Source: Flavobacterium lipolyticum
GTDB lineage: Bacteria > Bacteroidota > Bacteroidia > Flavobacteriales > Flavobacteriaceae
Direction of reading: 5' to 3'
Assembly (NCBI RefSeq): GCF_020905335.1
Contig: NZ_JAJJMN010000001.1
Span: 1,116,001-1,180,000, forward strand
DNA: 64,000 nucleotides
Under the pieces are notes generated by a model. The model had not been told where the DNA came from. It saw nothing but the letters and a program-made list of their open reading frames with translations, and made no database searches. This document shows, in pieces, positions 3,724 to 49,802 of the stretch (positions are counted from its first letter, which is position 1; each line of letters begins with the position of its first letter). Both the position numbers and the translations under genes were made by a program.

Positions 3724-3789
3724 GTTCTCTTAAAATAAAATCCTTAAAACGAGACTGTTTTCAGTTGTTCTTTCTTTACTTTTCATTTT

Positions 3790-6646: not shown

Positions 6647-6656
6647 TTAGTGGTGA

Positions 6657-7766: not shown

Positions 7767-7811
7767 AATTAAAAATTGGGGTTAAAAAGTAAATGGTATT
7801 GTAATTAAAAA

Positions 7812-8852: not shown

Positions 8853-8867
8853 AAATTAGTTTGTTAA

Positions 8868-9536
8868 TTAGGGCTTTATATATTTGTGGAATAAAAACTC
8901 GGCGAAATCAAAATCTTCCTGCGTATCAATATCAACATTGGCAAAAATATGATCTATTTTGAAAGCAAAAGCATCTTCCGAAATAATTATATCTTCAAGA
9001 ATTAATGATGCTTTTGTGATATATAACAACCCATTTTCAAAATAAATCGGTTCCATATCCTGACTTCTCTGACCAATTTTGTAATTGTACGGAACAAACT
9101 TTTGATCTGTTATTTTTCCGAACTTTTTATAGTTTCTTGAAACAGTAAATAAACTATCGCTGTCTTCCTTTTGATAAATTTCAAATGTTTCTTTTAGCAA
9201 ACTTTCCGGACGAACAGGGTTTGTAGGCTGAAGCAGTACCACATTCTCTACTTCATGATCAATATTTTGTAAAACATGTTTTAATGCCGAAGCTGTCGCC
9301 TCATGATCTCCCGAAATATCTGCGGGTCTGTCTATTACCTTTGCTCCGTATTCTAAAGCTATTTTTTTTACATTTTCATCGTCAGTCGAAACATAAATTT
9401 CTTCAATGATAGCGCTATTTGCCTTAGCATACATAATACTGTGTGCTAACAAAGGGATTCCTCCAAGCAGTTTTATATTTTTTTGAGGCAATCTTTTAGA
9501 TCCTCCACGTGCCGGAATAATAGCGATCGTTTTCAT
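8868..9536 (-). CDS. neuA: CMP-N-acetylneuraminate (acylneuraminate) cytidylyltransferase
   Basis: A 222-residue enzyme that activates a nonulosonic acid with CTP for transfer. The nucleotide-binding signature IPARGGSKRLPQKN lies at residues 7-20. YVSTDDENV, VVLLQPTNPVRP and the FANVDIDTQEDFDFAE ending are all typical of NeuA/LegF/PseF proteins. It lacks the C-terminal hydrolase domain of long NeuA proteins. Specificity among nonulosonic acids cannot be read from the sequence alone, but the Neu5Ac-type NeuB directly downstream points to CMP-Neu5Ac. Confidence 0.88.
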   Translation of the reverse strand: MKTIAIIPARGGSKRLPQKNIKLLGGIPLLAHSIMYAKANSAIIEEIYVSTDDENVKKIALEYGAKVIDRPADISGDHEATASALKHVLQNIDHEVENVVLLQPTNPVRPESLLKETFEIYQKEDSDSLFTVSRNYKKFGKITDQKFVPYNYKIGQRSQDMEPIYFENGLLYITKASLILEDIIISEDAFAFKIDHIFANVDIDTQEDFDFAEFLFHKYIKP

Positions 9537-9570
9537 TTTTAATGTTTAAAAGAATTGCAACAATATTATT

Positions 9571-10476
9571 TTATGGTTTCCAATACAACTTTGTATCTTC
9601 CTGCTCCTGATAAATTTTATATTCTCGTATGGATAGTCTATTGCTATTTTTGATTATTTTAGGAAATGCCAAAATTAAATCTATTGTTGCCAAAAACAAT
9701 GCTTTCAAAGCTTTAAAATCTCCCTTGAAAACTCTTAATTTAAGCTGCATCCAAACAGAATACGTTATTTTTTTTGGAATGACCTTAAGAGGATAAAACA
9801 AAAAATACAAATACCAGCCGGAACGCAATGACCGTCGGAGGCGTAAACTATAATCGGCATTCTTTTTTCTGGATTTTAAATCTACTCTATGATTTACTAA
9901 CACTTCCGGTAAATAATAAATCTTCCATTGTTTTTTAAATAACTGAAATGACGCAAAATCTTCTTCTCCATAAAAAACAAACCATTCCGGATAATCAGGA
10001 ACATCTCGCCAGGCAGACATTCTCCAGACATTAGCTCCACCGGCGAAACTTTTCATTTGATGTAAAACGTCGTCACTGGTCGTTATTTCCGGTTCTTGTA
10101 AACTCCAATAGATTCTAAAACTAAAGAGTGCCACATTAGGATTCTCTTCAAAAGCTTTTTCTATAATTTCTAAAGGATTTGTGGTAATAAAATGTAAATC
10201 ATCATCAATCGAAATGGCAAAATCAGTCGTAACCAAATCCATCATTCTGTTCCGACTATAGATCAGTCCTTCGCTTTTATTGTTCCGAACTAATTGAATT
10301 TCCGGATAATTCTTTTCAATCAATGAATACGTTCCGTCTGTTGAACCGTCGTCACAAATAATACAAGATACATCTTCTCTATCCAGTAAATGCTGAATTT
10401 TACGCAATGTAAAATTCAGATCCTCTTTTCTGTTTTTGGTGGTAATGAGAATAGAAAACTTCTTCTGAATGTGCAT
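9571..10476 (-). CDS. Glycosyltransferase family 2
   Basis: A 301-residue GT-A glycosyltransferase. The N-terminus FSILITTKNRKEDLNFTL is followed by IICDDGSTDGT, the nucleotide-binding aspartates, and by FAISIDDDLHF, the metal-binding acidic motif. YGEEDFASF is the likely catalytic-base region. A basic, hydrophobic tail (about residues 215-275) probably binds it to the inner membrane. Donor and linkage are unknown. It is the last of a run of seven glycosyltransferases between gmd and neuA. Confidence 0.82.
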   Translation of the reverse strand: MHIQKKFSILITTKNRKEDLNFTLRKIQHLLDREDVSCIICDDGSTDGTYSLIEKNYPEIQLVRNNKSEGLIYSRNRMMDLVTTDFAISIDDDLHFITTNPLEIIEKAFEENPNVALFSFRIYWSLQEPEITTSDDVLHQMKSFAGGANVWRMSAWRDVPDYPEWFVFYGEEDFASFQLFKKQWKIYYLPEVLVNHRVDLKSRKKNADYSLRLRRSLRSGWYLYFLFYPLKVIPKKITYSVWMQLKLRVFKGDFKALKALFLATIDLILAFPKIIKNSNRLSIREYKIYQEQEDTKLYWKP

Positions 10477-10480
10477 TTAC

Positions 10481-11485
10481 TTAATAATTTCTAATCATTG
10501 GTTGTGGTAACTTTTTATATCGCAAGAATATCTTTTTCATCCATTTGACTGAAATAAATTTTACAAATATTCTGTTTTTTATAAAATACAAAACTGGATT
10601 TAATTTTATATTTTTATTAAATCCGCATTGAATTATGTCAGTATTAGAAGCTTTCGGAACAGACATCCAGTCCTCTAAAGTATTTCCTAAATGACAGGCG
10701 TAATTATCCTGAGTTGTTACTCTCCAGTAATTTTTCTTAAGAGGCGATTTATCTAAATACCCCTCACTGGTTCCTCCCATCTTAAAGCCTATATAACTTA
10801 CGATTTCATCAAAAATATCCTTTTTATAACTTGCGACAAAATGTCCCGAACCAATCAACACTTTTAAGTCTGGACTAATCTCCAAACCTAAATTATATTC
10901 TAAATAATCCTGATTATAATTTCTATCCCAACCAAGACTGTCATAAAATCTAATTAAAGCTTCTTTGTTTTTTACGGGAATAAATTTTAATTTTTTACTG
11001 AATAAATTATCCCAGATAACATTTCCGCAATTTTGTTCATACATTTTAAACTGCGGTACAATGCCTACCACTCCCGCATTAGGAATATTTGTAAAAACTT
11101 TTACTGTTTCAGATTGCCAGTTCGGTAAAAACAATACATCTGAATCTGAAATTGTAACCAATTCTATATGATTCCCCGCCAAACCTTTCAATATAGCATT
11201 AAGTTTTCCTATGTTATCAGTATGAATTAATTCGTGTATTTTATTTTGCTTTAAAAGAAAATCTAAATATTCTTTTATAATTGTATCACTTCCATTATTA
11301 ACAATAGTGATAAATGTTTTTTTGTGAACTGTAACCAATAAAGATTCCAGACAAAGTTTTAAAATTGCAAAACTATCTTTAAAATAACCTTCCTGATTAG
11401 GTATGTAAACAGGGATTATGATCTGATGAATAAATTCAGAATCTTTTTGTGGTTCATCTTTAAATGGATTAAATCCTACCCGCAT
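10481..11485 (-). CDS. Glycosyltransferase, GT2-like
   Basis: A 334-residue GT-A-type protein. HQIIIPVYIPNQEGYFKDS near residue 20 is followed by ITIVNNGSDTIIKEYL. The acidic metal motif LVTISDSDVLFLPNW then takes the place of the classical DxD loop. The insertion in the N-terminal strand is larger than in standard GT2 members, so a divergent subfamily is likely. It lies 4 bp upstream of the next glycosyltransferase gene. Specificity unknown. Confidence 0.72.
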   Translation of the reverse strand: MRVGFNPFKDEPQKDSEFIHQIIIPVYIPNQEGYFKDSFAILKLCLESLLVTVHKKTFITIVNNGSDTIIKEYLDFLLKQNKIHELIHTDNIGKLNAILKGLAGNHIELVTISDSDVLFLPNWQSETVKVFTNIPNAGVVGIVPQFKMYEQNCGNVIWDNLFSKKLKFIPVKNKEALIRFYDSLGWDRNYNQDYLEYNLGLEISPDLKVLIGSGHFVASYKKDIFDEIVSYIGFKMGGTSEGYLDKSPLKKNYWRVTTQDNYACHLGNTLEDWMSVPKASNTDIIQCGFNKNIKLNPVLYFIKNRIFVKFISVKWMKKIFLRYKKLPQPMIRNY

Positions 11486-11486
11486 C

Positions 11487-12431
11487 TTATTTCTTAAATA
11501 TAATTTTCAGTTTATGAAAAATCCTTTTTTTTAGTTTTGCTAATTTTAGAGAAACGGTATCATTTTTAATCTGTTGCTTAAAAAATACCTTATTCTCCCT
11601 AATGACTTTAGGAAATTCTCTTTTGATCCCAAAATATATACCTTGCTTTTTTTTATTTAAGAAAGTAGAATCTGAATCGCCATACTTTGTCTGATACAGT
11701 GATTCTATTATTTTCCAGCTGTTAACAAGACTATACGCTTTTTCGGTGGTTTGCAACAAACTTAAATTCTCACCGGACACATTATTTCGATATAAAACAT
11801 AAGTATTACCGGCAAAGATTATTTTACTGCAATTCGATAATACTCTAAAAAAAAACTCCCCATCATCGTTCATTGTTAAACTTTCATTCCAGTCACCTGA
11901 AAATGTTATTAGTTTTTTATTCATTAAAAAACTGTGTGAAGGAAAAAAGCCTCCATGTAGACCTATCAAATCAAAATATTCTTTTGCAGAATCAAAATTT
12001 CTATAATCAGGATTATTTTCATGCAATTTAAGGGTTTCGCTAATATGATCAAATCTTCCCCATTTGCATGTTGAAATAACAAATTCATCTTCATTCGACA
12101 CTAGCAGAATTTGTTCTTCGAGTTTATTTGCAGCCAGTATATCATCTGAATCCAAAAACTGGATATAATCGCCTTTTGCAACTTTTAGTCCAATATTTCT
12201 GGAAACACTTGCTCCTTTTTTATCTTCTTTTGATTTTAATATCAGTTTGAATCTATTATCCTTTTCCTTGTAAAGCTTTATCGTTTCTTCTGTTTTATCG
12301 GACGAATTATCATCAACTATAACACACTCCCAATTAGAATAAGTTTGTCCAATTAGGCTGTCGAGTGTTTCACCAATCAAATGTGCCCGATTGTAAGCGG
12401 GGATAATAATAGAAACTAAAGGCTTATTCAT
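11487..12431 (-). CDS. Glycosyltransferase family 2
   Basis: A 314-residue enzyme with a textbook GT2 opening: VSIIIPAYNRAHLIGETLDS, CVIVDDNSSDKTEE and the metal motif YIQFLDSDDILAANK. The NDDGEFFFRV segment fits the catalytic-base position. The C-terminus is strongly basic (KLKKRIFHKLKIIFKK), suggesting membrane association. A run of nine A at 11847-11855 lies inside the coding region. The gene overlaps the upstream GT4 gene by eight bases. Donor unknown. Confidence 0.83.
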   Translation of the reverse strand: MNKPLVSIIIPAYNRAHLIGETLDSLIGQTYSNWECVIVDDNSSDKTEETIKLYKEKDNRFKLILKSKEDKKGASVSRNIGLKVAKGDYIQFLDSDDILAANKLEEQILLVSNEDEFVISTCKWGRFDHISETLKLHENNPDYRNFDSAKEYFDLIGLHGGFFPSHSFLMNKKLITFSGDWNESLTMNDDGEFFFRVLSNCSKIIFAGNTYVLYRNNVSGENLSLLQTTEKAYSLVNSWKIIESLYQTKYGDSDSTFLNKKKQGIYFGIKREFPKVIRENKVFFKQQIKNDTVSLKLAKLKKRIFHKLKIIFKK

Positions 12432-15349: not shown

Positions 15350-16371
15350 TTTTTACTATAGAAAGTTATTGATTTTACAAACAGTTTTGTTTCGTGCCAT
15401 AATTTTAATTTAAATGGTGACTTTTTTCTAATTTTTAAATATTGCAAATAAACTTTTGGAGAGTATTTTTCTTTTTTAAAAAAATAGTCTTTATACAAAT
15501 TGTTCTGAATCTCTAACAGATACTTTTCAAAACCTGTCTTTTCAAAAAAAGAAGTTTGATTTGCCAAAAGCAATTTGTTTTTTAAATCTTCGAATCGATT
15601 TATTTCGCTAAAAGAAACAAATTCTCTTCGTGATATTATCTTCTTTAGAAAATCTTGTGTCTCATCATCTCTTTCAAAATTGAGATTCGTCAGTAAATTA
15701 ACTTTAATCTCCAGTGCAGTATTTGCTTGTTGTTCATTTCTTTTATGAGAAACTTGCGAATTGTGAACACGATAATTAAGTAAAACTTCCGGCAAATTGT
15801 ACAGCTTTCCCACGGCTAACAATCTTGTCCAGAGATCATAATCTTCGGCTGGCTCTTTTTGGGTATCGTAAATTAAAGCAAATCTATCCAAATAACTTTT
15901 CCTCATCATTACAGTTGGATGTCCTATACAACAATCCTTAAGCATTGCCAATTTTATATCATCATGATCTTCAGGAACAACAACGATTTTATCTTTGCCA
16001 ATTATCTTAAAGTATGTGCCAATAAGTACTGTTTCAGGATTTTTATCTAAAAAAGCAACTTGTTTAACAAAACGTTCCGGCAGACTTATATCATCACCGT
16101 CCATACGGGCAATATATTCTCCTTTAGCAATGCTCAATCCGAAATTCAGACTATTCGTAAGACCTGAATTTTGAGGTTTTACGATTAATTGTATTCTGGG
16201 ATCATTATAGTTTTTTATAATTGATACTGTTGAATCTAGAGAAGCATCATCAATTATTATAAATTCAAAATCTGAAAAAGTCTGATTCAAAATACTATCT
16301 ATTGCTTCCTCTATATAAAGTTCGCAATTATAGACAGGCATTAGAACTGATATCTTGGGGCTTGAAGACAT
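15346..16371 (-). CDS. Glycosyltransferase family 2
   Basis: A 341-residue GT2 enzyme with ISVLMPVYNCELYIEEAIDS, FIIIDDASLDST and YIARMDGDDISLPERF. KEPAEDYDLWTRLL marks the catalytic region. The RMDGDD form with a LPERF tail is common in enzymes adding Gal, GalNAc or GlcNAc in beta linkage, but this is only a trend. It starts one base inside the stop of gmd, so it is coupled to the GDP-sugar genes upstream. Confidence 0.83.
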   Translation of the reverse strand: MSSSPKISVLMPVYNCELYIEEAIDSILNQTFSDFEFIIIDDASLDSTVSIIKNYNDPRIQLIVKPQNSGLTNSLNFGLSIAKGEYIARMDGDDISLPERFVKQVAFLDKNPETVLIGTYFKIIGKDKIVVVPEDHDDIKLAMLKDCCIGHPTVMMRKSYLDRFALIYDTQKEPAEDYDLWTRLLAVGKLYNLPEVLLNYRVHNSQVSHKRNEQQANTALEIKVNLLTNLNFERDDETQDFLKKIISRREFVSFSEINRFEDLKNKLLLANQTSFFEKTGFEKYLLEIQNNLYKDYFFKKEKYSPKVYLQYLKIRKKSPFKLKLWHETKLFVKSITFYSKK

Positions 16372-17444
16372 TATTTCACTTCTTTTTCGAATAATTCTAT
16401 ATCTGATGCAACCATTTGTTTTACTATATCATTCAAATCAAATTTTGGTTCCCATCCTAAAACTGTTCTTGCCTTTGTAGAATCTCCGATCAACAAATCA
16501 ACCTCTGTTGGTCTATAATAAGTAGGATCAACTTTTACTACTTCTTTGCCAATCTCAATTTGATATTTTGGATTCGAACAAGATTTAACTTTTCCAACTT
16601 CATTTTCATTTTCTCCCACAAATTCCAGTTCAATACCACATTCTAAAAATGCCATTCGAACAAATTCTCTTACCAGAGTAGTTTTACCGGTTGAAATAAC
16701 AAAATCATCTGGTTTATCTTGCTGTAAAATTAACCACATCGCTTCTATGTAATCTTTCGCGTGGCCCCAATCTCGTTGCGAGTTTAAGTTCCCAATATAT
16801 AATGCATCCTGCAAACCTAAAACTATTTTAGCTGTAGCCATAGTAATTTTTCGGGTAACAAATGTTTCTCCTCGCAGAGGCGATTCATGATTAAATAAAA
16901 TTCCATTGCAGGCAAACATATTATACGCCTCTCGATAATTTACAGTTATCCAATAGGCATAAATTTTTGCCACACCATAAGGCGAACGAGGATAAAAAGG
17001 TGTTTTTTCGGTTTGTGGTACTTCTTGCACTAAACCATACAGCTCTGAAGTTGAAGCCTGATAGACCTTGGTTTTTTCTGCCAGACCTAAAATTCTTACC
17101 GCTTCTAGTAATCTCATGGCTCCTAAACCATCAACATTTGCGACATATTCAGGAGTATCAAAACTAACTTTTACATGAGACATAGCCCCTAAATTATAGA
17201 TCTCGTCAGGTTGAACTTCCTGAATTATTCTTATTAGATTGGTAGCATCAGATAAATCCCCATAATGAAGAATGAATCGAACGTTTTCCTCATGAAGGTC
17301 TCTAAACAAATGATCAATTCGTTGCGTATTAAATGATGAAGCTCTTCTTTTTACACCATGAACTTCGTAACCTTTCTCTAATAAAAATTCGGCTAAATAA
17401 GCTCCATCCTGACCAGTAACTCCGGTTATTAATGCTTTTTTCAT
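16371..17444 (-). CDS. gmd: GDP-mannose 4,6-dehydratase
   Basis: A 357-residue extended short-chain dehydrogenase that turns GDP-mannose into GDP-4-keto-6-deoxymannose. It opens with the NADP-binding [20 protein letters not shown] and the GMD-specific [16 protein letters not shown]. The catalytic set is seen in QASTSELYG and [16 protein letters not shown] (Tyr-x3-Lys). Length is normal. Its product can go to L-fucose via the GMER-like gene at 20533, or to colitose via the ColD-like gene at 18270. GDP-mannose would come from ManC at 48795. Confidence 0.96.
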
Positions 17445-17447
17445 TTT

Positions 17448-18269
17448 CTATATTTTAACCCAATTTGTCGGGATTATGTCATTCGTATTTATGGAATCGT
17501 CATTGAACCATCGTTTTGGAGCAATTACAATTTTATTAGGATTTTTATTCAGCCATGCACCCCACCAGCTAAAACTACTATTTGCTATAATATTGTGCTT
17601 GCAAGATGCCATTAATTTTAAATCTTCAAAATTTGTTGAAGCATCATTAAAATCAATAAATACTGTTTCTTGTTTGGTCGAAAAATTTGCTTTTACCCAA
17701 TCCATATCATCCGAAAAGACAAAATAAACAGGATTATATACCTTATTTTCAACCATCTCCAAAGCTTTGTTATAATATTCTTCTTTACTTGTATTATGCA
17801 ATGGATTATTTATATAGTCTCCTCTTCGAATATGTATCGAAACAGAATTTACAGACTCAATTTTTGCAATTGCAGCTTTAGTCTCTTTTTTTAGCAGTGT
17901 CCGCACTTCAAAATCTTCCCGAATTTCTTTTTCATACTTTATAAAATATTTCTCTGATTGGAAATAACCTTCCAGAAATATAATATCTCCTTTTAAATGA
18001 ATCAGATCAGAATTATATCCAAAATCGACTTCTTTATAAAATACATTTTTTTGATAAAAACTCTTTATTTTTCTTAAATATCGATTGGGCTTTTTATAAT
18101 TTTTAGAAATGACATTAAAATGGCTTAATGCATAGTTATGCAATTTATAGCTCTCAAATTGCGATATATCAAGAGAAAACTTTTGTTTTGTTTGTAATGC
18201 CAGAGCTTTAGCTGCTGCATATTGAAACAACTGATTTCCTAAACCACCAATTAACTGAACGACGATCAT
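17448..18269 (-). CDS. GT11 family alpha-1,2-fucosyl- (or colitosyl-) transferase
   Basis: A 273-residue GT11 protein. It begins with the family hallmark VVQLIGGLGNQLFQYAAAKA and contains the GDP-sugar binding motif HIRRGDY at residues 146-152. YFVFSDDMDWVK and IANSSFSWWGAWLN (Ser-Phe-Ser-Trp-Trp) follow, all conserved in bacterial alpha-1,2-fucosyltransferases. GT11-like enzymes are also reported to transfer colitose, and this gene sits directly between the ColD-like gene and gmd, so either 6-deoxy sugar could be its donor. Spacers to both neighbours are 0-3 bp. Confidence 0.9.
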   Translation of the reverse strand: MIVVQLIGGLGNQLFQYAAAKALALQTKQKFSLDISQFESYKLHNYALSHFNVISKNYKKPNRYLRKIKSFYQKNVFYKEVDFGYNSDLIHLKGDIIFLEGYFQSEKYFIKYEKEIREDFEVRTLLKKETKAAIAKIESVNSVSIHIRRGDYINNPLHNTSKEEYYNKALEMVENKVYNPVYFVFSDDMDWVKANFSTKQETVFIDFNDASTNFEDLKLMASCKHNIIANSSFSWWGAWLNKNPNKIVIAPKRWFNDDSINTNDIIPTNWVKI

Positions 18270-19445
18270 TTATTTTTTTAATAAATTTTCGATAATTAAC
18301 AAATCTTCCTCCAGTAGTTCTGGATAATTTCCACAATAAAATCCATTTGCATGCATCATATCTGCACCTGGCATTTCATATAATTCGCTTACATACTTTT
18401 TGTAAAAAGGCTGCTCCTGCATATTTCCGGCTATCATTGGTCTAATTTCGACTCCAGCTTTTGTAAATTTATCCAGATAATATTCTCTTAGTTGCGGCGT
18501 TTTACAAACAAACGGAAAAGCGAAGGTAGACAATCTGTTGATATGATTGTGTTTTAGATAAACAAAGTCGGAATTGTCTTTTATAATATTTTCTATTCGC
18601 AAATAGTTTTGTTCTCTTTTACTTATATTTTCTTCTAAAAACTGCATTTGATATTGCCCCAAAAAGCCTGTAATTTCAGTAGGTCTGAAGTTGTATCCTA
18701 AATCATAGAAAGTGTACTTGGCCTGAAATTCTGACTGAATATCAAATCTCCCTCTCCATTTTTCCTGTTGTTCAGCAGTAAGATTTCTGTCCCAGCCATT
18801 GGCTCTTACAATTCTAAGCATTTCGGCAAAATCATCATCACTTGTACAAACCATTCCTCCCTCTATAGTTGACATATGATGGGCAACAAAAAAAGAGAAG
18901 CTCCCTCCAATTCCAAAATTACCGGTAGTTTCCTCTGGCAGTTCCGTTCCTAATGATTCGCAATTATCTTCTATTAAAATAATATTCCTTTGATCACAAA
19001 TTTCTTTTATGACATCTATATCTCCTGTAAAACCTAAAATATTCGTGATAAACAAAGCCTTTAAATCTGTTGTTTTCAATCTTTCCAAAAGATGATAGGA
19101 CATGGTATTCAATGTATCAGGCTCACAATCGAGAGCAACCGGAACCATTCCTAACTGAATAATTGGCATTGTATTGGTCGACCAAGTTAATGCTGAGAAA
19201 GCTACTTTGTCACCATCTTTCAACTTTCCTAAATTTTTTAAGGCCTGTAACATCGCTAAGTTCGCACTACCTCCACTATTAAATAATACTGCATGTTTAC
19301 ATTTTTGATATTGAGCAAATTTATCTTCAAATTTTTTACATTCAATATCCATACTTAATCTGTCTGCATTAAGAATGAAATCAGCCAAGGCTTTTTTAGT
19401 TTGTTCTTCTTTAAGAAATGCTTTTCGCATTAAGGGTATTCTCAT
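18270..19445 (-). CDS. colD: GDP-4-keto-6-deoxymannose 3-dehydratase, ColD-like PLP enzyme
   Basis: A 391-residue member of the DegT/DnrJ/EryC1 fold. The residue that would be the Schiff-base lysine is replaced: the motif reads SFFVAHHMSTIEGG with His189 at that place, where aminotransferases such as ArnB have Lys. This His-for-Lys change is the hallmark of the 3-dehydratases ColD (His188 in the 388-residue E. coli enzyme) and RfbH/E1. RfbH works on CDP sugars and has an N-terminal extension that is absent here. With GMD and a GMER-like enzyme on either side, the likely product is GDP-4-keto-3,6-dideoxymannose, precursor of GDP-L-colitose. Perosamine synthase is excluded by the missing Lys. 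Confidence 0.8.
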   Translation of the reverse strand: MRIPLMRKAFLKEEQTKKALADFILNADRLSMDIECKKFEDKFAQYQKCKHAVLFNSGGSANLAMLQALKNLGKLKDGDKVAFSALTWSTNTMPIIQLGMVPVALDCEPDTLNTMSYHLLERLKTTDLKALFITNILGFTGDIDVIKEICDQRNIILIEDNCESLGTELPEETTGNFGIGGSFSFFVAHHMSTIEGGMVCTSDDDFAEMLRIVRANGWDRNLTAEQQEKWRGRFDIQSEFQAKYTFYDLGYNFRPTEITGFLGQYQMQFLEENISKREQNYLRIENIIKDNSDFVYLKHNHINRLSTFAFPFVCKTPQLREYYLDKFTKAGVEIRPMIAGNMQEQPFYKKYVSELYEMPGADMMHANGFYCGNYPELLEEDLLIIENLLKK

Positions 19446-20536
19446 TTTTTAATTTTATTAAAATATGGTTTTTCTAAATATTCATAAATATAAATTGACA
19501 ATAAAACAGCGAAAGAAAATGATACCATATATTCTATTATCATGGATATAAAACTTGATATATTTAAATACATCGTCAATTTGGAAGTAAGATTTAACTT
19601 TGTAATTACAAAACAATGTATAACATAAAAAGAATAACTAACCATTCCTAATAATTGCATAAAACCATTAACCAGTAAAAACTCCAATTTGTTTCCTTTT
19701 ATTAAATTCCCAAGAATTATCAAGAAGAAACCCATTTGAACTGTTATGTAAAATAATGCGCTATACAGTTTATCTGTCGTAACAGATGTTACCCAGTTAA
19801 AGTTTAACCAACCATACATTTGAAAAAATATGATAGAAAAACCTGCAATAACAATTAATTCTTTGTATTTAAATAAAACTTTAGATCGATTAATCTCCTC
19901 ATGGTATTTTGCTAAAAAAACACCAAAAAAGAACCCTAAAAATCTAACGGGTTCTCCTATTATATGTTGTTCAATAAAAAAATGAATTAATAAAATTGAT
20001 GTAAATATCAATAGTAGAAATATAATACTTGTAGTAATTTTATTTGGTAGGGTAATATATAATATTCCTGCTAAAATGTAAAAGTATATTTCGTAAACCA
20101 ACGACCACGTGACTACGACAATACTTGAACTTGAATTAAAAATATTTAAAAAGAAAATATTATCTAAAATAACCTTTAGATGGAATCCATTATAAATTAT
20201 AAAAGGGATAATTAAAATAAAAACAATTACGGGTAATAATCGAGAGTATCTTTTGTACATAAATTGGATAAAAGATATCTTATTATTAGGATTCGTTAAA
20301 GATTTGTAGATTAAAAATGAGCTAATTAAAAAAAAGCAATCTACACCAATATGACCAGAATGTAAAAATTTAATAATTGGCTCAAAAACAGAATCTTCAC
20401 TTAAAAAGTAATCTTCCTTTTGAAATTTTCCGAAAAAATGAACCCCAAACACTAACAAAATAGCAAAACCCCGTAATCCTTCAATGAAAGAATATTTATT
20501 CGCTTTAGGGTTTAACTTTAGGGCATTATTAATCAT
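19442..20536 (-). CDS. Acyltransferase 3 family membrane protein
   Basis: A 364-residue integral membrane protein with the O-acyltransferase opening FIEGLRGFAILLVFGVHFF. GVDCFFLISSFLIYKSL and VVTWSLVYEIYFYILAG (replacing the more usual SLxxE-x2-FY) follow, with about ten helices in all. It overlaps both neighbours by four bases, lying between the GMER-like and ColD-like genes. This suggests that it O-acylates the 6-deoxy sugar or the repeat that carries it; acyl group and position are unknown. Confidence 0.85.
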   Translation of the reverse strand: MINNALKLNPKANKYSFIEGLRGFAILLVFGVHFFGKFQKEDYFLSEDSVFEPIIKFLHSGHIGVDCFFLISSFLIYKSLTNPNNKISFIQFMYKRYSRLLPVIVFILIIPFIIYNGFHLKVILDNIFFLNIFNSSSSIVVVTWSLVYEIYFYILAGILYITLPNKITTSIIFLLLIFTSILLIHFFIEQHIIGEPVRFLGFFFGVFLAKYHEEINRSKVLFKYKELIVIAGFSIIFFQMYGWLNFNWVTSVTTDKLYSALFYITVQMGFFLIILGNLIKGNKLEFLLVNGFMQLLGMVSYSFYVIHCFVITKLNLTSKLTMYLNISSFISMIIEYMVSFSFAVLLSIYIYEYLEKPYFNKIKK

Positions 20537-21462
20537 TTTAATTTTTTATAACTTTCTATTACCTCTTCTATTCCTTTTTCTAATGATTTAGCAGGTTTAA
20601 ATCCTTCTTTTACCATATTAGAAACATCCATGCATTTTTTAAGCATTCCGTTTGGTTTAGTATCATCCCACAAAATTTGTCCTAAGTATTCTACTTTTGA
20701 AGCGATCAAGGCTGCTAATTCTTTTATACTGATATCCGTTCCGGGACCTATATTAATAAAATTGGGAGAATTATAATTCTCGAAAAAGTATAAAATTGCC
20801 TTAGAAAAGTCTTCTACATGCAAAAACTCTCTTCGTGCAATTCCGGTGCCCCATAAACTAATAGAGGGATCATTATTGGTTTTAGCATCTGTAAATCTTT
20901 TTACTAATGATGATAAAACATGTGCATGATTTAAATCAAAAGAATCGTTTGGTCCGTATAAATTACTCGGAATTAAACTAATCCCGTTAAAACCATATTG
21001 TTTATTATAGCTTTCTAATAACTTAATGCCGGCAATTTTTGCAATTGCATAACCTTCGTTTGTGGGTTCAGGTTTACCATCTAAAAGATATTCTTCTCTC
21101 ATAGGTTGTGGAGAAGCTGCTGGATAGATACAAGAACTTGCAATAAAAACAAACTTTTTAATATGATGCTTATATGCCGAATTAATTACATTTGACTGTA
21201 TCATTAAATTGTCATACAAGAAAACTGCCGGATTATCAATATTAGCTTTAATACCTCCAACTTTAGCCGCAATATGAATGACGTACTCCGGTTTTTCTCT
21301 CTCAAAGAAAGCATCAACCTCTTGTTGATTGATTAAATCTAAAGTTTTGTGTGTTGTCGTTATTATATTAGAATACCCACTTTCCTTAAAAAGATCTAAA
21401 GTTATACTGCCCAACATTCCCGTATGCCCAGTAATATATATTTTAGCGTTTTTATTTATCAT
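20533..21462 (-). CDS. fcl: GDP-L-fucose synthase family (GMER) or ColC-type 5-epimerase/4-reductase
   Basis: A 309-residue extended short-chain dehydrogenase. It has IYITGHTGMLGS at the NADP site, VIHIAAKVGGIKANI, and the catalytic residues Ser109 and Cys111 in ASSCIYP. Tyr138 and Lys142 lie in YAIAKIAGIKL, and His181 in NHAHVLSSLVKRF. These match E. coli GMER, including the acid/base Cys and His used for 3,5-epimerisation. ColC, which finishes colitose synthesis, is homologous to GMER and cannot be told apart by motif. Since a ColD-like gene follows, both GDP-fucose and GDP-colitose remain possible. Confidence 0.88.
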   Translation of the reverse strand: MINKNAKIYITGHTGMLGSITLDLFKESGYSNIITTTHKTLDLINQQEVDAFFEREKPEYVIHIAAKVGGIKANIDNPAVFLYDNLMIQSNVINSAYKHHIKKFVFIASSCIYPAASPQPMREEYLLDGKPEPTNEGYAIAKIAGIKLLESYNKQYGFNGISLIPSNLYGPNDSFDLNHAHVLSSLVKRFTDAKTNNDPSISLWGTGIARREFLHVEDFSKAILYFFENYNSPNFINIGPGTDISIKELAALIASKVEYLGQILWDDTKPNGMLKKCMDVSNMVKEGFKPAKSLEKGIEEVIESYKKLK

Positions 21463-22051
21463 CTTGCTCGAATAATCCTGTTAGCTCTAATTTTTCTATT
21501 ATCATCCTAGCTTCATTTAGATCTTTAGACCACCAGTCAGATTCCAGAATATGCTCTATTGTTAAAGCCGGGAATCTCATCTTAATGAATTTTGAAGGTG
21601 CGCCTGCTACAACTTCAAAAGGTTTTACATCTCTATTTACAAATGAATTTGCACCAATTACTGCACCATCACCTATAGTAACACCTCTTCTTATAACTGA
21701 ATTGGTACCAATCCAGACATCATTTCCAATTACACATTCTTTTTCAGTCAGTGTTTCCCAGGCATTTTTATAAAAATGACTACTTGTAGAGACCCTGCTT
21801 ATTTTATGTTCCCCTATACCAATACTAACATTACCTGCAATAGAACAGTATCTTCCAATTTTTGATTTGGTTATGATGCTATTAAATCCAATATAAGTAT
21901 ATTCTCCAATTTCATTCTCACCACTTAATATTGTCGAAGACATAATCTCCACATTATGGAATTTACCCTGATTTGGGTTCACTAACAAATTTTCTCTTTT
22001 AGCGAACCTGCGATTAATAGCTCTATAAATACGTTTTACTATTTTTTTCAT
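21452..22051 (-). CDS. Hexapeptide-repeat (LbetaH) O-acetyltransferase, CatB/Vat-like
   Basis: A 199-residue left-handed beta-helix protein. Repeated [LIV]-G-x4 hexads run from about residue 40 to 150, for example IGEYTYIGFNSIITKSKIG and VIGNDVWIGTNSVIRRGV. GEHKISRVSTSSHFY carries the catalytic-histidine loop typical of xenobiotic/sugar acetyltransferases. The C-terminal helices end with the WWSKDLNEAR element. The gene overlaps the next by eleven bases. It would acetylate a soluble sugar intermediate; the substrate is unknown. Confidence 0.85.
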   Translation of the reverse strand: MKKIVKRIYRAINRRFAKRENLLVNPNQGKFHNVEIMSSTILSGENEIGEYTYIGFNSIITKSKIGRYCSIAGNVSIGIGEHKISRVSTSSHFYKNAWETLTEKECVIGNDVWIGTNSVIRRGVTIGDGAVIGANSFVNRDVKPFEVVAGAPSKFIKMRFPALTIEHILESDWWSKDLNEARMIIEKLELTGLFEQDDK

Positions 22052-23001
22052 CTTACCAAAACTCTTTTTATTTTGCCTAAGAATCCGACCAAAACATTTC
22101 TCTTATTTATCTCAAAATCAGATTTTAATTTCACAAATTTCTTTTTAGAAAGAATGTTTTTATCATCTAAAATTTTAACTAAAAAAGGAAAAAAATTATC
22201 GCGATGAAGACTATCAATTGACTCTTTTTTAAGTAGTTCTAATCTTTTTTCAAATTCACTTTCTTTAATCGCGGACTCAATTATCTTTACACTTGATTCA
22301 AAATCATCTATGCTAATTCTGATAAAAGATTCTCTATTAACTATACTTTCTAAATTTGGACATCCATAATAGAATGGCAGAGTATGAGTATAAATACAAT
22401 CAAATAATTTTTCAGTAACCCAATCGTCGCAATAATCATTTTCTATGGCTATTGAATATTTATAGTTGGCTAAAACATCCCATTTATCTTCAAAATCTGC
22501 TATACCTCTGCCATAAACATCCAACTGATCCCCAAAATATTCCTTGAGTTTTTCAACAAACTCCATTCTTTTTCGATGACCTTCAGTAAAAGCCTTATTG
22601 GATGAAATAACAGAAATTAATTTCGTCTTATCAGGCGTTGCGAGAGAATTTAACTCATCAAATGATTTCCCGATAAACCATGGATTCGCGTTGTGCGAAT
22701 AAATAATATTTCTATGTTTTAGCTCTTTTTGTACCGTAATAATTGTACCAAATTGATCTAAAAATTTTTGACTAAACTTAGGACTAGTATTGTAACATTC
22801 TCCTGGAATAAAAATTACATTTTCGGGATCACACTTTACAATCTCTGTTTTTATTTTATAATCGGTATATACAATCCAAAAATCACACTCTTTCAGATTA
22901 TCATCGATAACAAACTTATAGTCTCCCCAAATCTGAGAGAAATTTGGAGTTTGTCTAAAAAGAGGCCAATCGTAATTAAATGTTAGCTTAACTATTTTCA
23001 T
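22048..23001 (-). CDS. GT10 family alpha-1,3/4-fucosyltransferase-like enzyme
   Basis: A 317-residue protein. The donor-binding block YSIAIENDYCDDWVTEKLFD (residues 182-201) followed by THTLPFYYGCPN is the GT10 signature: an [FY]xxxxEN segment, then [YW]VTEK and P-x2-[YW]-G. This is as in bacterial alpha-1,3-fucosyltransferases such as Helicobacter FutA. There are no C-terminal heptad repeats of the Helicobacter kind; the tail is simply basic. Donor should be GDP-fucose or, given the ColD-like gene, GDP-colitose. It directly follows wzt. Confidence 0.85.
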   Translation of the reverse strand: MKIVKLTFNYDWPLFRQTPNFSQIWGDYKFVIDDNLKECDFWIVYTDYKIKTEIVKCDPENVIFIPGECYNTSPKFSQKFLDQFGTIITVQKELKHRNIIYSHNANPWFIGKSFDELNSLATPDKTKLISVISSNKAFTEGHRKRMEFVEKLKEYFGDQLDVYGRGIADFEDKWDVLANYKYSIAIENDYCDDWVTEKLFDCIYTHTLPFYYGCPNLESIVNRESFIRISIDDFESSVKIIESAIKESEFEKRLELLKKESIDSLHRDNFFPFLVKILDDKNILSKKKFVKLKSDFEINKRNVLVGFLGKIKRVLVR

Positions 23002-23004
23002 TAT

Positions 23005-24288
23005 TTACAATTTTTTCCATTCCGGATTTAAAAAGAAAAGACCGGCTGCTCTTGGCAAACTTCTAATGGTATATTTTCCTCCATCTATAATTTGAAAAGA
23101 CAATGCATTTTCAATACAGTCAAATATCTGGTGTCCTGTAGTAGTATTACTTGTAAAGCTGATGGTATATATCCCCGGGAAAAGTCTTATGTCTTTTACG
23201 CTTACAACATACTCTTCTTGTTTTTCTACATGGGTTAATTCAAAATTTGAATCTCTCCCCATAATATGAAAAATAGGCATTTCGTCTGAAGATTTTATCT
23301 GAATTCCGACCTCAGATTTTGCTTCGTTTGTATTATTTTGTAGTCTGAATTTAATAATTAAATCATCTCCAATAGAGAACTCGTGATTTAGCTTTTGGTT
23401 TTGATCTCTTATCTCTACAGAGAGAAACTCTATGTTTCTGCTACCAGTTCGTTTTGTATCTGAATCAAAAACAACAGTATGATCAGTAGCATTACTATTA
23501 TTTGAATATACATCTAGAGCTTCATTAATGTCCCCATTAAATTTTACAGTTCCATTTTCTAAAACTATTCCTCTTGTACACAAACTCTTTACAGCCGCCA
23601 TATTATGACTCACAAACAAAACAGTCCTGCCACCTTCACGCGATATATCCTGCATCTTGCCAATAGCCTTTTTCTGAAACTCGGCATCACCAACAGCTAA
23701 AACCTCATCCACCACTAATATTTCGGGCTCCAAAAATGCTGCTACAGCAAAAGCTAAGCGCACTGTCATTCCAGAGCTATATCTTTTTACGGGTGTATCG
23801 ATGTAACGTTCACAACCTGAAAATTCAATAATTTCATCAAGCTTAGAGGAAATTTCTTTTTTAGTCATTCCGAGAATCGCCCCATTTAAGAAAATATTTT
23901 CCCTTCCGGTCATTTCTCCATTGAAACCAGTTCCGACTTCGAGAAGTGAAGCAATACGGCCGCGAGATTTTATACTTCCGGTAGTTGGAGCTGTTACTTT
24001 TGAAAGTATCTTTAAAAGTGTTGATTTTCCTGCTCCGTTTTTACCAATAATTCCGAGAACTTCTCCTCGTTCCACTTCAAAGTTAATGTCTTGCAGTGCC
24101 CAGACATAATCTGAATTGCCTTTAACTGATCGGTCATTCGTGTCACCAATTTTTAAATATGGATTCTCTTTGCCTCTTATTTTGTGCCACCATCTATTGA
24201 TGTCATGACTCAAAGTTCCCGTACCTACTTCTCCTAAACGATATTGTTTAGAAATGTTCTCGGCCTTTAATATTATATCTCTTTCCAA
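23005..24288 (-). CDS. wzt: O-antigen/teichoic-acid-type ABC exporter ATPase, Wzt (TTG start)
   Basis: A 427-residue ATPase of the polysaccharide ABC exporters. Walker A is GKNGAGKST (residues 82-90), the signature RYSSGM (169-174), Walker B ILVVDE (190-195) and the switch SHNM near 228. About 160 residues beyond the ATPase (from 265) form a beta-rich Wzt C-terminal domain, which in O9a-type systems binds the finished chain end. No ATG exists upstream within the frame, so TTG at 24288 is taken as start. The partner permease gene lies just upstream. This defines a second, ABC-dependent export route in the locus. Confidence 0.93.
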   Translation of the reverse strand: MERDIILKAENISKQYRLGEVGTGTLSHDINRWWHKIRGKENPYLKIGDTNDRSVKGNSDYVWALQDINFEVERGEVLGIIGKNGAGKSTLLKILSKVTAPTTGSIKSRGRIASLLEVGTGFNGEMTGRENIFLNGAILGMTKKEISSKLDEIIEFSGCERYIDTPVKRYSSGMTVRLAFAVAAFLEPEILVVDEVLAVGDAEFQKKAIGKMQDISREGGRTVLFVSHNMAAVKSLCTRGIVLENGTVKFNGDINEALDVYSNNSNATDHTVVFDSDTKRTGSRNIEFLSVEIRDQNQKLNHEFSIGDDLIIKFRLQNNTNEAKSEVGIQIKSSDEMPIFHIMGRDSNFELTHVEKQEEYVVSVKDIRLFPGIYTISFTSNTTTGHQIFDCIENALSFQIIDGGKYTIRSLPRAAGLFFLNPEWKKL

Positions 24289-24311
24289 AATTGTAAATGG
24301 TAAATCAGTAA

Positions 24312-25175
24312 TTAAACAGTATCTATAAAACTTTTCTCCGTTTTATTAAAAACCAGAAGTCCAATAAAAAATACTGTTATAGTGACAACTAAAGTATACG
24401 CTAGTCCTAAAATCGAAATTCCCCCAACATTCAATAACATGAAACGGGCAGTCTCAATAATATAAGCTAACGGGTTATATTCGACGAGCCAACCGTAACT
24501 AGGTAATTTGTCTTTAATAAGCTCCATAGGATACATCACTGCTGATAAATACATCAATAATTGTATACCAAAACCAATTAGATGACTAAAGTCGCGATAT
24601 TTTGTTACCATTGCCGAGATAAGCATTCCGAGGCCTAATCCTAAAATTCCCATTATAATTACTAAAATAGGGAAAACTAAAACAAGACCATTTAAACTTA
24701 AATCTGCTCCTTGAAAATAGTACAAAACATAGAATCCAATAAAAATTAAAAATTGAATTCCAAACTTTACAAGATTTGAAATTACAACGGACAGGGGAGT
24801 AATGATTCTGGGAAAATATACTTTCCCAAAAATCGCGGCATTAGCCTTAAAAGTGTCTGATGTCCCGGTAAGACAAGCAGTAAAATAATTCCAAACTGTT
24901 ATTCCTGCCAGATTAAATAAAAATGGAGGAACTGTTCCTGTGTTAATCCCAGCAACATTATTGAATATTATTGTAAAAGTTATTGAAGTAAACAATGGCT
25001 GAATCAGATACCAAAGCGGACCTAAAACAGTTTGCTTATAAACCGTGATTACGTCACGTTTTACGAAAAGAAATAATAAGTCTCGATACTGCCAAACTTC
25101 TTTTAAGTTTAACGAGAAGAACTTATTTTTAGGTGTTATTTCAAACAACCAATCATCGGGGCTAATGTTGTTCAT
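24312..25175 (-). CDS. wzm: Polysaccharide ABC exporter permease, Wzm
   Basis: A 287-residue ABC-2 type membrane protein. The N-terminal amphipathic segment LKEVWQYRDLLFLFVKRDV is typical of Wzm/TagG. About six helices follow, and the VYKQTVLGPLWYLIQPLF stretch is the conserved coupling region. It is the first gene after a terminator and a 202-bp spacer, so it probably heads the ABC-type cluster that runs to the left edge. It works with the ATPase at 23005-24288 to flip a complete lipid-linked glycan across the inner membrane. Confidence 0.93.
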   Translation of the reverse strand: MNNISPDDWLFEITPKNKFFSLNLKEVWQYRDLLFLFVKRDVITVYKQTVLGPLWYLIQPLFTSITFTIIFNNVAGINTGTVPPFLFNLAGITVWNYFTACLTGTSDTFKANAAIFGKVYFPRIITPLSVVISNLVKFGIQFLIFIGFYVLYYFQGADLSLNGLVLVFPILVIIMGILGLGLGMLISAMVTKYRDFSHLIGFGIQLLMYLSAVMYPMELIKDKLPSYGWLVEYNPLAYIIETARFMLLNVGGISILGLAYTLVVTITVFFIGLLVFNKTEKSFIDTV

Positions 25176-35281: not shown

Positions 35282-35300
35282 TTAAATGATTTTAAAAAAA

Positions 35301-36428: not shown

Positions 36429-36463
36429 TTTTATTTAAAATATTTTCTATCGAAACTAGATCT

Positions 36464-41387: not shown

Positions 41388-41395
41388 CAATTTTA

Positions 41396-42388: not shown

Positions 42389-42392
42389 AATG

Positions 42393-43934: not shown

Positions 43935-44084
43935 AAATTTGGCATAAAGCTCAATTATTTTATTCTCGTTTAACTTTCGATGATTAAAAAAGAATTTAGT
44001 ATCTCTATATCAAGAAAAAAAATCAAGCTTATTGTACTAAATCAGAACTATTATAATCTTTTATTAATTAAATTTTTTTCTTAA

Positions 44085-45158: not shown

Positions 45159-45166
45159 CAAAAAAA

Positions 45167-47686: not shown

Positions 47687-47735
47687 ATTTGAGTTAAAAT
47701 TTAACCTTAAGTTTGGTTGAAACGAAATGTTCATT

Positions 47736-48794: not shown

Positions 48795-49802
48795 TTAATT
48801 TAATAATTCTGAATTTTGCCTTTCCAGCTCACCATATAAGTCTTTTACATCTTGCGAATTCTCTTTTTGCAGAATTAAATTGGCAGTATCTGTATAGACA
48901 AAAATGGTGTTTTTTAATCCTAAGAATGCGGTATATTTTTCGGTACCAATAATCATGTTCCCATTATCATCGATAGAATGTCCTCTTGACACTAAATAGT
49001 CGTAAACGGATTCAAATGATCCCAGATCCGACCATGAAAACGCTGCAGGAACAACTTTTATTTTCTTACTGCGTTCCATAACAGCATAATCGATACTTAT
49101 GGATGGGATTTCTAAAGACAAATCTAAATCTAAAAAGCCCTCGTTATTAGCTTGCCAAACAGCTTTAGATTTCTCAAAAACGTCCGGTTGAAATTGTTTC
49201 AATTCCTCTAAAAGAACTCCAGCTTTAAAACAAAACATACCACTATTCCATAGAAAATTACCTCTTGCGATGAAATTTTTAGCAGTGGTTTCATTTGGTT
49301 TTTCACGAAATGAAACTACTTTATCGCCTTTTGATTCAATGTAACCATATCCTGTTTCCGGTTTAGTTGGAATAATCCCAAAAGTTACTATAAAACCTTC
49401 TTTAGCCTTTACAATAGCTTCATCTATCGCTTTATTGTAATCTTCCATCTTTTCAATAATATGATCAGACGGGGTTACAATTAAAATATCATCAGGATCA
49501 CAAGCAAATGCAGCAAATGCAATCGCCGCGGCTGTATTTCGAGGAGTCGCTTCAACAATATTAACATACTCTCTTTTAGACTTATCCATTACTTTGGCAC
49601 TAAGAGAATGATTGTCTACATTGCCAACAACCATTACTTTATCAGCTAAATGATTGTTGCGATCGACTGTCAATTCAAATAAAGACTTTCCTTCAAACAT
49701 TTCCAAATATTGCTTGGGTTGACTTTTTCTGGATAATGGCCAAAGTCTGCTCCCAATACCTCCGGTCAAAATAACATGTATGATCGAATTATTTACTTCC
49801 AT
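48795..49802 (-). CDS. manC: Mannose-1-phosphate guanylyltransferase
   Basis: A 335-residue single-domain enzyme. LTGGIGSRLWPLSRKSQPKQ is the pyrophosphorylase signature, then TPRNTAAAIAFAAF, VTPSDHIIEKMEDY, FREKPNETTAK, FLWNSGMFCFK and SIDYAVMERS. It lacks the C-terminal phosphomannose isomerase domain of longer ManC proteins. It makes GDP-mannose, which in this window would be used by GMD at 16371 in the ABC-type cluster. Confidence 0.92.
   Translation of the reverse strand: MEVNNSIIHVILTGGIGSRLWPLSRKSQPKQYLEMFEGKSLFELTVDRNNHLADKVMVVGNVDNHSLSAKVMDKSKREYVNIVEATPRNTAAAIAFAAFACDPDDILIVTPSDHIIEKMEDYNKAIDEAIVKAKEGFIVTFGIIPTKPETGYGYIESKGDKVVSFREKPNETTAKNFIARGNFLWNSGMFCFKAGVLLEELKQFQPDVFEKSKAVWQANNEGFLDLDLSLEIPSISIDYAVMERSKKIKVVPAAFSWSDLGSFESVYDYLVSRGHSIDDNGNMIIGTEKYTAFLGLKNTIFVYTDTANLILQKENSQDVKDLYGELERQNSELLN

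Follow-up and report, generated by a model that had tools for sequence, protein, structure and literature searches.

The window, i.e., the whole 64-kb stretch of the Flavobacterium lipolyticum genome analyzed here, contains a sugar nucleotide cassette, all genes of which lie on the minus strand at the positions given below. The GDP-mannose 4,6-dehydratase (GMD) gene (16371..17444) encodes a protein with 63–64% identity to E. coli Gmd, matching PF16363 with 496 bits and TIGR01472 with 582 bits (cut-off 415). Next to it lie a GT11 glycosyltransferase gene (17448..18269; PF01531, 131 bits), predicted to encode a colitosyl- or fucosyltransferase, and the gene of a His-type PLP/PMP enzyme (18270..19445), a putative GDP-4-keto-6-deoxymannose 3-dehydratase as judged from its DegT fold, PDB match, tree placement, and residues. 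The latter is referred to as ColD2, a name given in this analysis to the sister clade of ColD. The GMER-family epimerase/reductase gene (20533..21462; NF047922, 380 bits) is predicted, from its clade and its G/S/A/M residues, to encode a GDP-L-colitose synthase, i.e., to fulfill the role of ColC. Coordinates and Pfam matches bear out the preliminary description, in which the PLP enzyme was flanked by GMD, a GMER/ColC-type enzyme, and GT11.

Between the GMER and ColD2 genes, an AT3-type membrane acyltransferase gene (19442..20536; PF01757, 94 bits), absent from that description, was observed; among the related neighborhoods compared, it was also found at two loci (L012 and L019). Just beyond the originally described span (16371..21462), the cassette continues with an accessory hexapeptide-repeat acetyltransferase (21452..22051; PF00132, 61.8 bits) and a GT10 enzyme of the fucosyltransferase family (22048..23001; PF00852, 1.3e-16), predicted to be a second user of GDP-colitose. 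An ABC exporter follows, consisting of a Wzt-like ATPase with a C-terminal Wzt_C domain (23005..24288; PF00005, PF14524) and a Wzm-like permease (24312..25175; PF01061, 72 bits). A ManC-like mannose-1-phosphate guanylyltransferase, the likely source of GDP-mannose, is encoded at 48795..49802; its TIGR01479 score of 281 bits lies below the cut-off of 373, with only profile positions 1–349 of 467 aligned.

Profile searches of the organism's own genome revealed one GMD above cut-off and one GMER (NF047922, 380 bits; next match 53 bits), and yielded neither a PF07959 match for FKP nor a CDP-glucose 4,6-dehydratase over cut-off. Among 150 genomes of the genus Flavobacterium, ColD2 was present in five and canonical ColD in four, and each of these nine genomes contained one GMER-family gene at E 1e-50, namely the ColD-linked one. 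In the four genomes with canonical ColD, none of them the organism's own, the canonical ColC–ColD pairs are 55–68% identical to those of E. coli.

Residues and Phylogenetic Placement of ColD2

ColD2 comprises 391 amino acids and possesses a PLP fold. As claimed in the preliminary description, His189, which is followed by the second His of an AHH pair, takes the position of the Schiff-base Lys: it aligned with H188 of E. coli ColD, in a column that holds K in 13 of 13 Lys-type rows and His in all 30 ColD2 rows. The top PDB match was ColD (2gms; 5.6e-57, 197 bits), with PerA reaching approximately 100 bits in the same search; the entries 2r0t, 3b8x, and 3gr9 differ in sequence at or beside position 188 in the PDB-search alignments. 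The ColD active-site residues W88, R219, N248, R250, and R331 were retained in the 30-row ColD2 alignment. The window enzyme carries A, N, and Y at the positions of ColD S187, H215, and F240, which counts against the colitose reading, as does its identity of 33% to E. coli ColD.

In the tree, the His-type 3-dehydratases, including ColD2, were separated from the Lys types with a support of 100/100, and ColD2 joined ColD, not RfbH (100/98), the RfbH rows being Bacteroidota proteins above the RfbH cut-off instead of the assayed Yersinia enzyme. Both the ColD-like tree and the GMER tree carry long-branch warnings. The earlier assignment to the ColD/RfbH-type 3-dehydratases was supported, and grouping with Lys-containing aminotransferases was absent from the tree. 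Of the comparison with ColD, RfbH, and PerA proposed at that time, the ColD side held and was refined to a sister clade outside the canonical ColD clade; the comparison with PerA was by PDB search only. ColD2 is not an ortholog of E. coli ColD and represents a separate sister clade.

Five columns hold Cys in 80% or more of the RfbH rows, and three of these columns (219, 221, and 229) are devoid of Cys in the 30 ColD2 rows. ColD2 contains no Cys in the stretch 215–232, where the RfbH-specific columns reside; Cys161 is common to ColD2 and ColD, and Cys149 is present in ColD2 and absent from ColD. The comparison of ColD2 with the Fe–S ligands of RfbH is by position only.

Marker Residues and Fucose-Synthase Scores of GMER

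The window GMER was placed in a clade of its own together with other ColD2-linked GMERs (support 100/99, 22 rows), outside the canonical ColC clade, and all 22 sampled rows adjoin ColD2. The catalytic residues S107, C109, Y136, K140, and H179 of Fcl were retained. Its identity is 43.5% to E. coli Fcl and 37.9% to ColC, which counts against the colitose reading. The AlphaFold model showed a mean pLDDT of 88.7.

Four marker positions (135, 164, 207, and 280), derived in this analysis and not from the literature, read G135/S164/A207/M280 in the window GMER and G/C/S/M in E. coli ColC. Canonical ColC rows featured GCSM or GCAM (8/8), and the clade of the window GMER featured GSAM (16), GCAM (4), GPAM (1), and SSAM (1). 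P, A, or W135 with T164, P207, and T280 was found in 28 of 28 Fcl rows of the first set, composed of 24 Flavobacterium sequences, the E. coli Fcl, and three GMERs termed type C (G040 and G141 loci, G086 gene), which were set apart. In a count of 105 rows leaving out these three, G135 occurred in 47 of 52 ColD-linked GMERs vs. none of 53 unlinked ones. Chosen on one set, it was later found in all 21 readable viral-contig GMERs beside ColD and in none of 28 further Fcls of a second set; a 186-aa frame (L027) and a fragment (L204) were too short for the marker residues.

Several observations on these markers count against the colitose reading. G135 is missing in five of the 52 ColD-linked GMERs (L024, L028, L035, L037, and L039); a ColD-linked GMER on a Streptomyces plasmid, outside the 52, reads A-S-T-M; and an unlinked Fcl (L110), with no ColD-like frame in the surrounding 20 kb, carries the ColC-like A207 and M280, making markers 207 and 280 weaker than at first sight. 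Since ColD linkage changes only three times on the GMER tree, the association between residues and linkage cannot reach significance; the pairwise test offered between one and three independent pairs, too few for statistics. Hence, the association of G135 with ColD linkage rests on few evolutionary events.

NF047922 scores decreased from E. coli Fcl (551 bits) over three Bacteroidota Fcls unlinked to ColD (497–500) and the ColD2-linked GMERs (380–420; window and two relatives) to canonical ColC (292–304; four scanned). The window GMER lies below the cut-off of 500, which by itself says little because the three unlinked Fcls also miss it; its gap of approximately 117 bits to the latter is more telling. 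A joint clade of ColC and the window GMER group was not rejected by the AU test (p 0.33; groups named after tree inspection). Convergence of the residues in ColC and the window GMER, which had been assumed at first, is no longer claimed given this value.

Linkage across Related Loci

A GMER-family gene was present in the local stretch of all 28 evaluable related loci (in L027 as the 186-aa frame only), and in 23 of them its end and the beginning of the ColD-like gene lie no more than 100 bp apart, indicating a grouping beyond chance; a GMD was also found in 23 of the 28. A 29th locus (L029), which is cut off, was left out of these counts. The ColD2 clade was found in many phyla, with linkage kept over several of them. 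In two Elusimicrobia loci (L032 and L033), ColD2 adjoins a GMER that falls within the clade of canonical ColC (100/100); both are MAG contigs without a GMD above 250 bits in the local stretch, and this partner swap was counted as one event. The His-type enzymes at the type C loci G040 and G141 lie beside an ordinary P-T-P-T Fcl, which counts against the colitose reading. Direct observations comprise the genes present, with one GMD and one GMER, the residues of the active site, the clades to which the enzymes belong, and the conserved linkage.

Predicted Pathway and Alternative Explanations

It is highly probable that the cassette serves the synthesis of GDP-L-colitose via ColD2 and GMER for a surface polysaccharide exported by the ABC transporter. 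ManC would supply GDP-mannose, which GMD would convert to GDP-4-keto-6-deoxymannose; ColD2 would then remove the C3 hydroxyl with PMP as cofactor and without an Fe–S cluster, and the neighboring GMER would invert C5 and reduce C4 to give GDP-L-colitose. GT11 would add the sugar to the polysaccharide, as GT10 probably does too, prior to export by the Wzt/Wzm-type transporter. We infer every one of these reactions, the stereochemistry of the sugar, the donor use of the transferases, and the formation of little or no fucose. Colitose is favored over fucose as the predicted product on account of the single GMER, its ColC-like residues, the partner swap with canonical ColC, and the lack of an FKP match; with the grouping of ColD2 with ColD, these findings support the GDP-colitose prediction made previously. 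From the sequences, the cassette is predicted to synthesize GDP-L-colitose through a diverged branch of the colitose pathway already known.

Formation of both GDP-fucose and GDP-colitose, with the single GMER taking the GMD product and the ColD2 product and each transferase using one donor, is possible, albeit doubtful; this explanation overlaps in part with the colitose reading, and the confidences are not meant to sum to one. The presence of one GMER for two fucosyltransferase-family genes, the retained Fcl catalytic residues, and the overall closeness of GMER to Fcl speak for it, and FUT2 and WbgN are described as each transferring fucose and colitose (PMC11987014). However, the GMER residues at 135, 164, 207, and 280 match ColC and not Fcl, the score lies far below the three same-phylum unlinked Fcls, and in E. 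coli O55 the colanic acid genes include an Fcl of their own. Another GDP-3,6-dideoxy sugar, differing in C4/C5 stereochemistry or being a heptose as in Campylobacter jejuni, is improbable. ColD2 is distant from E. coli ColD, and a PLP C3-dehydratase acts on GDP-heptose in C. jejuni, where, unlike here, epimerase and reductase are described as separate (PMC10440746). This sugar is also opposed by the GMD scoring above the equivalog cut-off, a reductase of the Fcl/ColC family with intact C109 and H179, and the canonical ColC adjoining ColD2 in the two Elusimicrobia loci.

An RfbH-type CDP-sugar dehydrase is very improbable. RfbH (NF011936) was the best NCBIfam model for ColD2, and 27 of 120 relatives among the matches listed bear the name CDP-6-deoxy-D-xylo-4-hexulose-3-dehydrase, but the score of 217.8 bits falls short of the cut-off of 423; this score, the separate tree group of the RfbH set, the three columns devoid of Cys, and the lack of an over-cut-off CDP-glucose 4,6-dehydratase in the genome led to the rejection of both this type and the CDP-sugar naming in databases. 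There is equally little probability of a GDP-perosamine-type aminotransferase or of a normal fucose cluster in which the PLP enzyme is nonfunctional, which would fit the common fold family and the GMD as neighbor. A Lys aminotransferase was rejected on the basis of the tree and the His at the Schiff-base column, and His at this position in 30/30 ColD2 rows, the conserved active site, and linkage across several phyla indicate that ColD2 is not a decaying gene.

Some strains of E. coli, Yersinia, Salmonella, and Vibrio are reported to carry colitose in their surface polysaccharides (PMC8987622), and so are Aeromonas trota and Pseudoalteromonas (PMC3210612, PMC4052302). Titles and abstract openings of the papers listed, mostly outside the subscription literature, contained no report of colitose from a Flavobacterium. 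With about even chances, ColD2 and its Fcl-like colitose synthase may constitute a second, deeply divergent colitose lineage in many phyla and a huge phage, misnamed in databases as 'CDP-sugar dehydrase' and 'GDP-fucose synthase', in which colitose replaces fucose altogether and GT10/GT11 'fucosyltransferases' build Lewis-like colitose antigens. If the colitose prediction is true, many GMER-family genes labeled GDP-fucose synthase would make GDP-colitose instead, and G135 with S or C164 could aid in telling them apart; for Flavobacteriia and several uncultured phyla, the predicted sugars would be corrected, and new enzymes for GDP-colitose production would become available.

Comparison with Known Systems

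ColD2 resembles ColD of E. coli O55 (2gms; the gene used being the full-length match, 885 bits) in the His replacing Lys, the lack of Cys in 215–232, and W88, R219, N248, R250, and R331. In O55, the ColD gene likewise adjoins a reductase gene, in the order ColC then ColD as at the GMER/ColD2 loci, and a GMD belongs to the cluster. ColD2 differs by the identity of 33%, the separate clade, and A-N-Y at S187, H215, and F240. ColC, a name assigned to the O55 gene beside ColD by position and homology (RefSeq: GDP-L-fucose synthase family), has in common with the window GMER the catalytic set, G135, M280, Cys/Ser at 164, and Ala/Ser at 207, as well as the location beside ColD seen for GMER in most relatives, whereas the identity of 37.9% and the clade of 22 rows set the window GMER apart. 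Fcl of E. coli (1bsv) agrees in fold family, catalytic residues, and 43.5% identity, but carries P, A, or W135/T164/P207/T280 in place of G/S/A/M and scores 551 instead of 380 bits with NF047922. RfbH/E1, the CDP-4-keto-6-deoxyglucose 3-dehydrase, possesses the His-type DegT fold, yet differs from ColD2 in its CDP pathway, its separate tree group, and its Fe–S cluster (PMC8987622). Finally, WbgN of E. coli O55, described as a GT11 colitosyltransferase (PMC11987014) and represented here by the O55 GT11 gene, is 36% identical to the window GT11, a putative colitosyl- or fucosyltransferase.

Phylogenetic Placement of the ColD-Like Enzyme

The preliminary description had placed a His residue (His189) at the Schiff-base Lys position of the PLP enzyme encoded at 18,270–19,445 (reverse strand) and had interpreted the protein as a ColD-like dehydratase within a predicted GDP-colitose cassette. 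The residue was present on checking, and both the observation and the main interpretation were judged to be right. A His in place of the Lys is also described for the well-characterized 3-dehydratases E1, ColD, and SpnQ, ColD being without an Fe–S cluster (PMC8987622). Among solved structures, E. coli ColD entries ranked first for the window enzyme (196.7 bits for PDB 2gms), followed by RfbH at 144 bits and perosamine synthase at 100 bits; its identity to E. coli ColD, whose reference gene matched 2gms over the full length, was 33%. In a tree of 67 sequences, built without PerA and with Bacteroidota proteins over the NCBIfam cut-off representing RfbH, 13 Lys types were separated from 54 His types (support 100/100), and the window enzyme was located on the His-type side. 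Canonical, E. coli O55-like ColD (six rows), a third His-type set of the genus termed type C (three rows), the L085 protein, and the window clade formed a joint group (100/98), with the RfbH set outside. The window clade, named ColD2 (30 rows, 100/98), appeared as the sister of canonical ColD and was not nested in it, and the ColD residues H188, W88, R219, N248, R250, and R331 were kept in all 30 rows. Judged from its sequence, the window enzyme is related to ColD as a divergent sister.

L085 (1342–2670, 442 aa) and L028 (15,697–16,938, 413 aa) are His-type DegT proteins on long branches, and neither belonged to a named clade.

Linkage and Distribution of ColD2

The genome-contig search yielded 29 loci from Flavobacteriia, Prochlorococcus, Leptospiraceae, Elusimicrobia, Lentisphaerae, Cloacimonadota, Nitrospinota, Planctomycetota, and several CPR groups; since many are MAGs, individual taxon placements may represent contamination. 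The nearest named ColD relatives in this collection were Flavobacterium species (F. chilense, 96%), so the window was assigned to this genus. Among the 28 loci evaluable for linkage, a GMER-family (epimerase/reductase) gene ended less than 100 bp from the ColD2 start in 23, GMD exceeded 250 bits in 23, and GT11 exceeded 60 bits in 16. An AT3 gene lay between GMER and ColD2 in two loci (L012 and L019), as in the window, and in three others (L024, L027, and L039) the distance was 0.9–4.9 kb, the GMER of L027 being a short frame.

ColD relatives were also encoded in 137 viral contigs, of which 80 were kept (L147–L226), many canonical-like ones adjoining GMD; 49 of 50 phage records with a relative belonged to Synechococcus phages. 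A 642-kb uncultured phage (LR756502.1, L227, 5990–8170) carried a GMER–ColD2 pair with 57% and 63% identity to that of the window, and plasmid NZ_CP106799.1 of the Gram-positive host Streptomyces (L228, 3908–7179) encoded GMD, a ColD2-like protein (47%), and GMER consecutively.

The Reductase and Its Marker Residues

In the GMER tree (63 rows), the window reductase (20,533–21,462, reverse strand) was assigned to a clade of 22 rows (100/99), all adjoining ColD2. Canonical ColC formed a separate clade (100/100), which also contained L032 and L033, two loci with ColD2 as neighbor. This exchange of partners, probably one event and found on MAG contigs without GMD in the stretch examined, is the strongest sign that ColD2 may pass on the same intermediate as ColD. 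Mixed partners were also found in viral contigs (e.g., L169, L170, and L173), with a ColD nearer to E. coli ColD and a GMER nearer to that of the window than to E. coli ColC. The Elusimicrobia locus L032 additionally encoded an RfbH-side His-type protein (3619–5037, 472 aa).

Between-clade comparison led to four marker positions, 135, 164, 207, and 280, numbered as in E. coli Fcl. The window clade had GSAM (16 of 22 rows), GCAM (four), GPAM (one), or SSAM (one), and canonical ColC had GCSM or GCAM (four rows each), whereas all 28 GDP-L-fucose synthases (Fcl; 24 from Flavobacterium, three type-C, and E. coli Fcl) showed P, A, or W followed by T, P, and T. In 28 Bacteroidota Fcls outside this selection set, G135 was never found, T164 always, and P207 and T280 in 27 each. 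The best 120 database relatives of the window GMER, irrespective of gene neighbors, featured GSAM (93), GCAM (26), and SSAM (one). Viral-contig GMERs adjoining ColD, readable in 21 of 22 cases and including several near copies, had G135 in 21/21 and a residue other than T164 in 17/21; the L227 phage and Chelatococcus GMERs had GCAM and the Streptomyces plasmid GMER ASTM. With identical rows removed and the three type-C rows left aside, G135 occurred in 47 of 52 ColD-linked versus none of 53 unlinked GMERs; as linkage changes only three times on the tree, this association represents few events, not 105. S107, C109, Y136, K140, and H179 were constant across the Fcl, window-clade, and ColC groups.

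Under the fucose-synthase model NF047922, E. coli Fcl scored 551 bits and three ColD-unlinked Fcls 497–500; the window GMER, together with two relatives, reached 380–420, and four canonical ColCs reached 292–304. Although named a fucose synthase, the window reductase looks like a colitose synthase in these comparisons. An Fcl in L137 (G267, 9479–11,726; 481 bits), located beside GMD, carried A135/T164/A207/M280 and is an exception to two markers; no ColD-like frame was found within 20 kb of it.

Predicted Product and Gene Cluster

The 5.77-Mb genome, of which the window is a 64-kb part of contig 1, encodes one GMD over the cut-off and one GMER (380 bits, the next match reaching 53 bits); neither FKP (PF07959) nor a CDP-glucose 4,6-dehydratase over the cut-off was found in it. 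Within the genus, 12 of 150 genomes matched the window ColD2 at E 1e-60, five with ColD2 (77–100% identity, own genome counted) and seven at approximately 35%. Four of the latter were canonical, with GMD, ColC, and ColD side by side (55–58% and 64–68% identity to E. coli ColC and ColD, respectively), and three were type C. Since canonical and ColD2 systems both occur within the genus, the window system is not just an E. coli pathway that Flavobacterium has acquired. GMER was detected at E 1e-50 in 74 of the 150 genomes; the five ColD2 and four canonical genomes had exactly one each, ColD-linked by coordinates in 9/9, and no spare fucose synthase at this threshold. It is unlikely that fucose is among the main products of the cassette.

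The type-C proteins stem from L088, L090, and L092 (G040, G141, and G086); L088 and L090 share the order SDR-like protein of 262 aa, protein of 266 aa, His-type enzyme, GMD, and ordinary Fcl, and type C may produce another GDP-3,6-dideoxy sugar using its own reductase.

On the reverse strand, the transcription order is Wzm permease, Wzt ATPase, GT10 (22,048–23,001), hexapeptide acetyltransferase, GMER, AT3 acyltransferase, ColD-like enzyme, GT11 (17,448–18,269), and GMD (16,371–17,444), followed by further frames resembling glycosyltransferases. Frame overlaps of four bases (GMER/AT3 and AT3/ColD) and gaps of zero (ColD/GT11) and three bases (GT11/GMD) give the cassette the appearance of one operon. 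A ManC-like gene (48,795–49,802) belongs to the same cluster.

The cluster also contains a predicted sialic-acid-type pathway (5519–9536; NeuB, which scored above the cut-off for N-acetylneuraminate synthase, together with a cytidylyltransferase and a member of the UDP-GlcNAc 2-epimerase family) and perhaps a UDP-L-FucNAc pathway (34,436–37,501; FnlA-like with 538 bits, below the cut-off of 730, RmlD-type reductase, and 2-epimerase). Since the Wzt/Wzm ABC exporter (23,005–25,175) is accompanied by EpsG, Wzz, and SLBB-export genes (40,269–47,734), the cluster perhaps serves two polysaccharides.

Comparison with Known Colitose Systems

TRANSFERASES. The window GT11 shared 36% identity with the E. 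coli O55 GT11 gene, taken to encode WbgN, which is described as transferring colitose (PMC11987014, PMC12723683). As WbgN and human FUT2 are reported to accept both GDP-Col and GDP-Fuc (PMC11987014), family labels do not distinguish fucose from colitose; we infer that colitose is used by both window transferases, GT11 and GT10. ColD/ColC annotations are mentioned for a verrucomicrobial endosymbiont (PMC8204192), and colitose pathways were predicted in a genome survey (PMC7725333); among the papers listed by the searches, titles and the beginnings of abstracts revealed no report of colitose from Flavobacterium or of a second ColD clade.

The RfbH set has five conserved Cys columns, whereas ColD2, on another branch of the tree, is without Cys at 219, 221, and 229. 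ColD2 and E. coli ColD have the active-site set in common but differ at S187, H215, and F240 of the latter, where ColD2 mostly has A (27/30), N (28/30), and Y (30/30), respectively. In E. coli O55, ColC precedes ColD, matching the order of GMER and ColD2. The predicted window pathway would represent a variant of the known colitose pathway.
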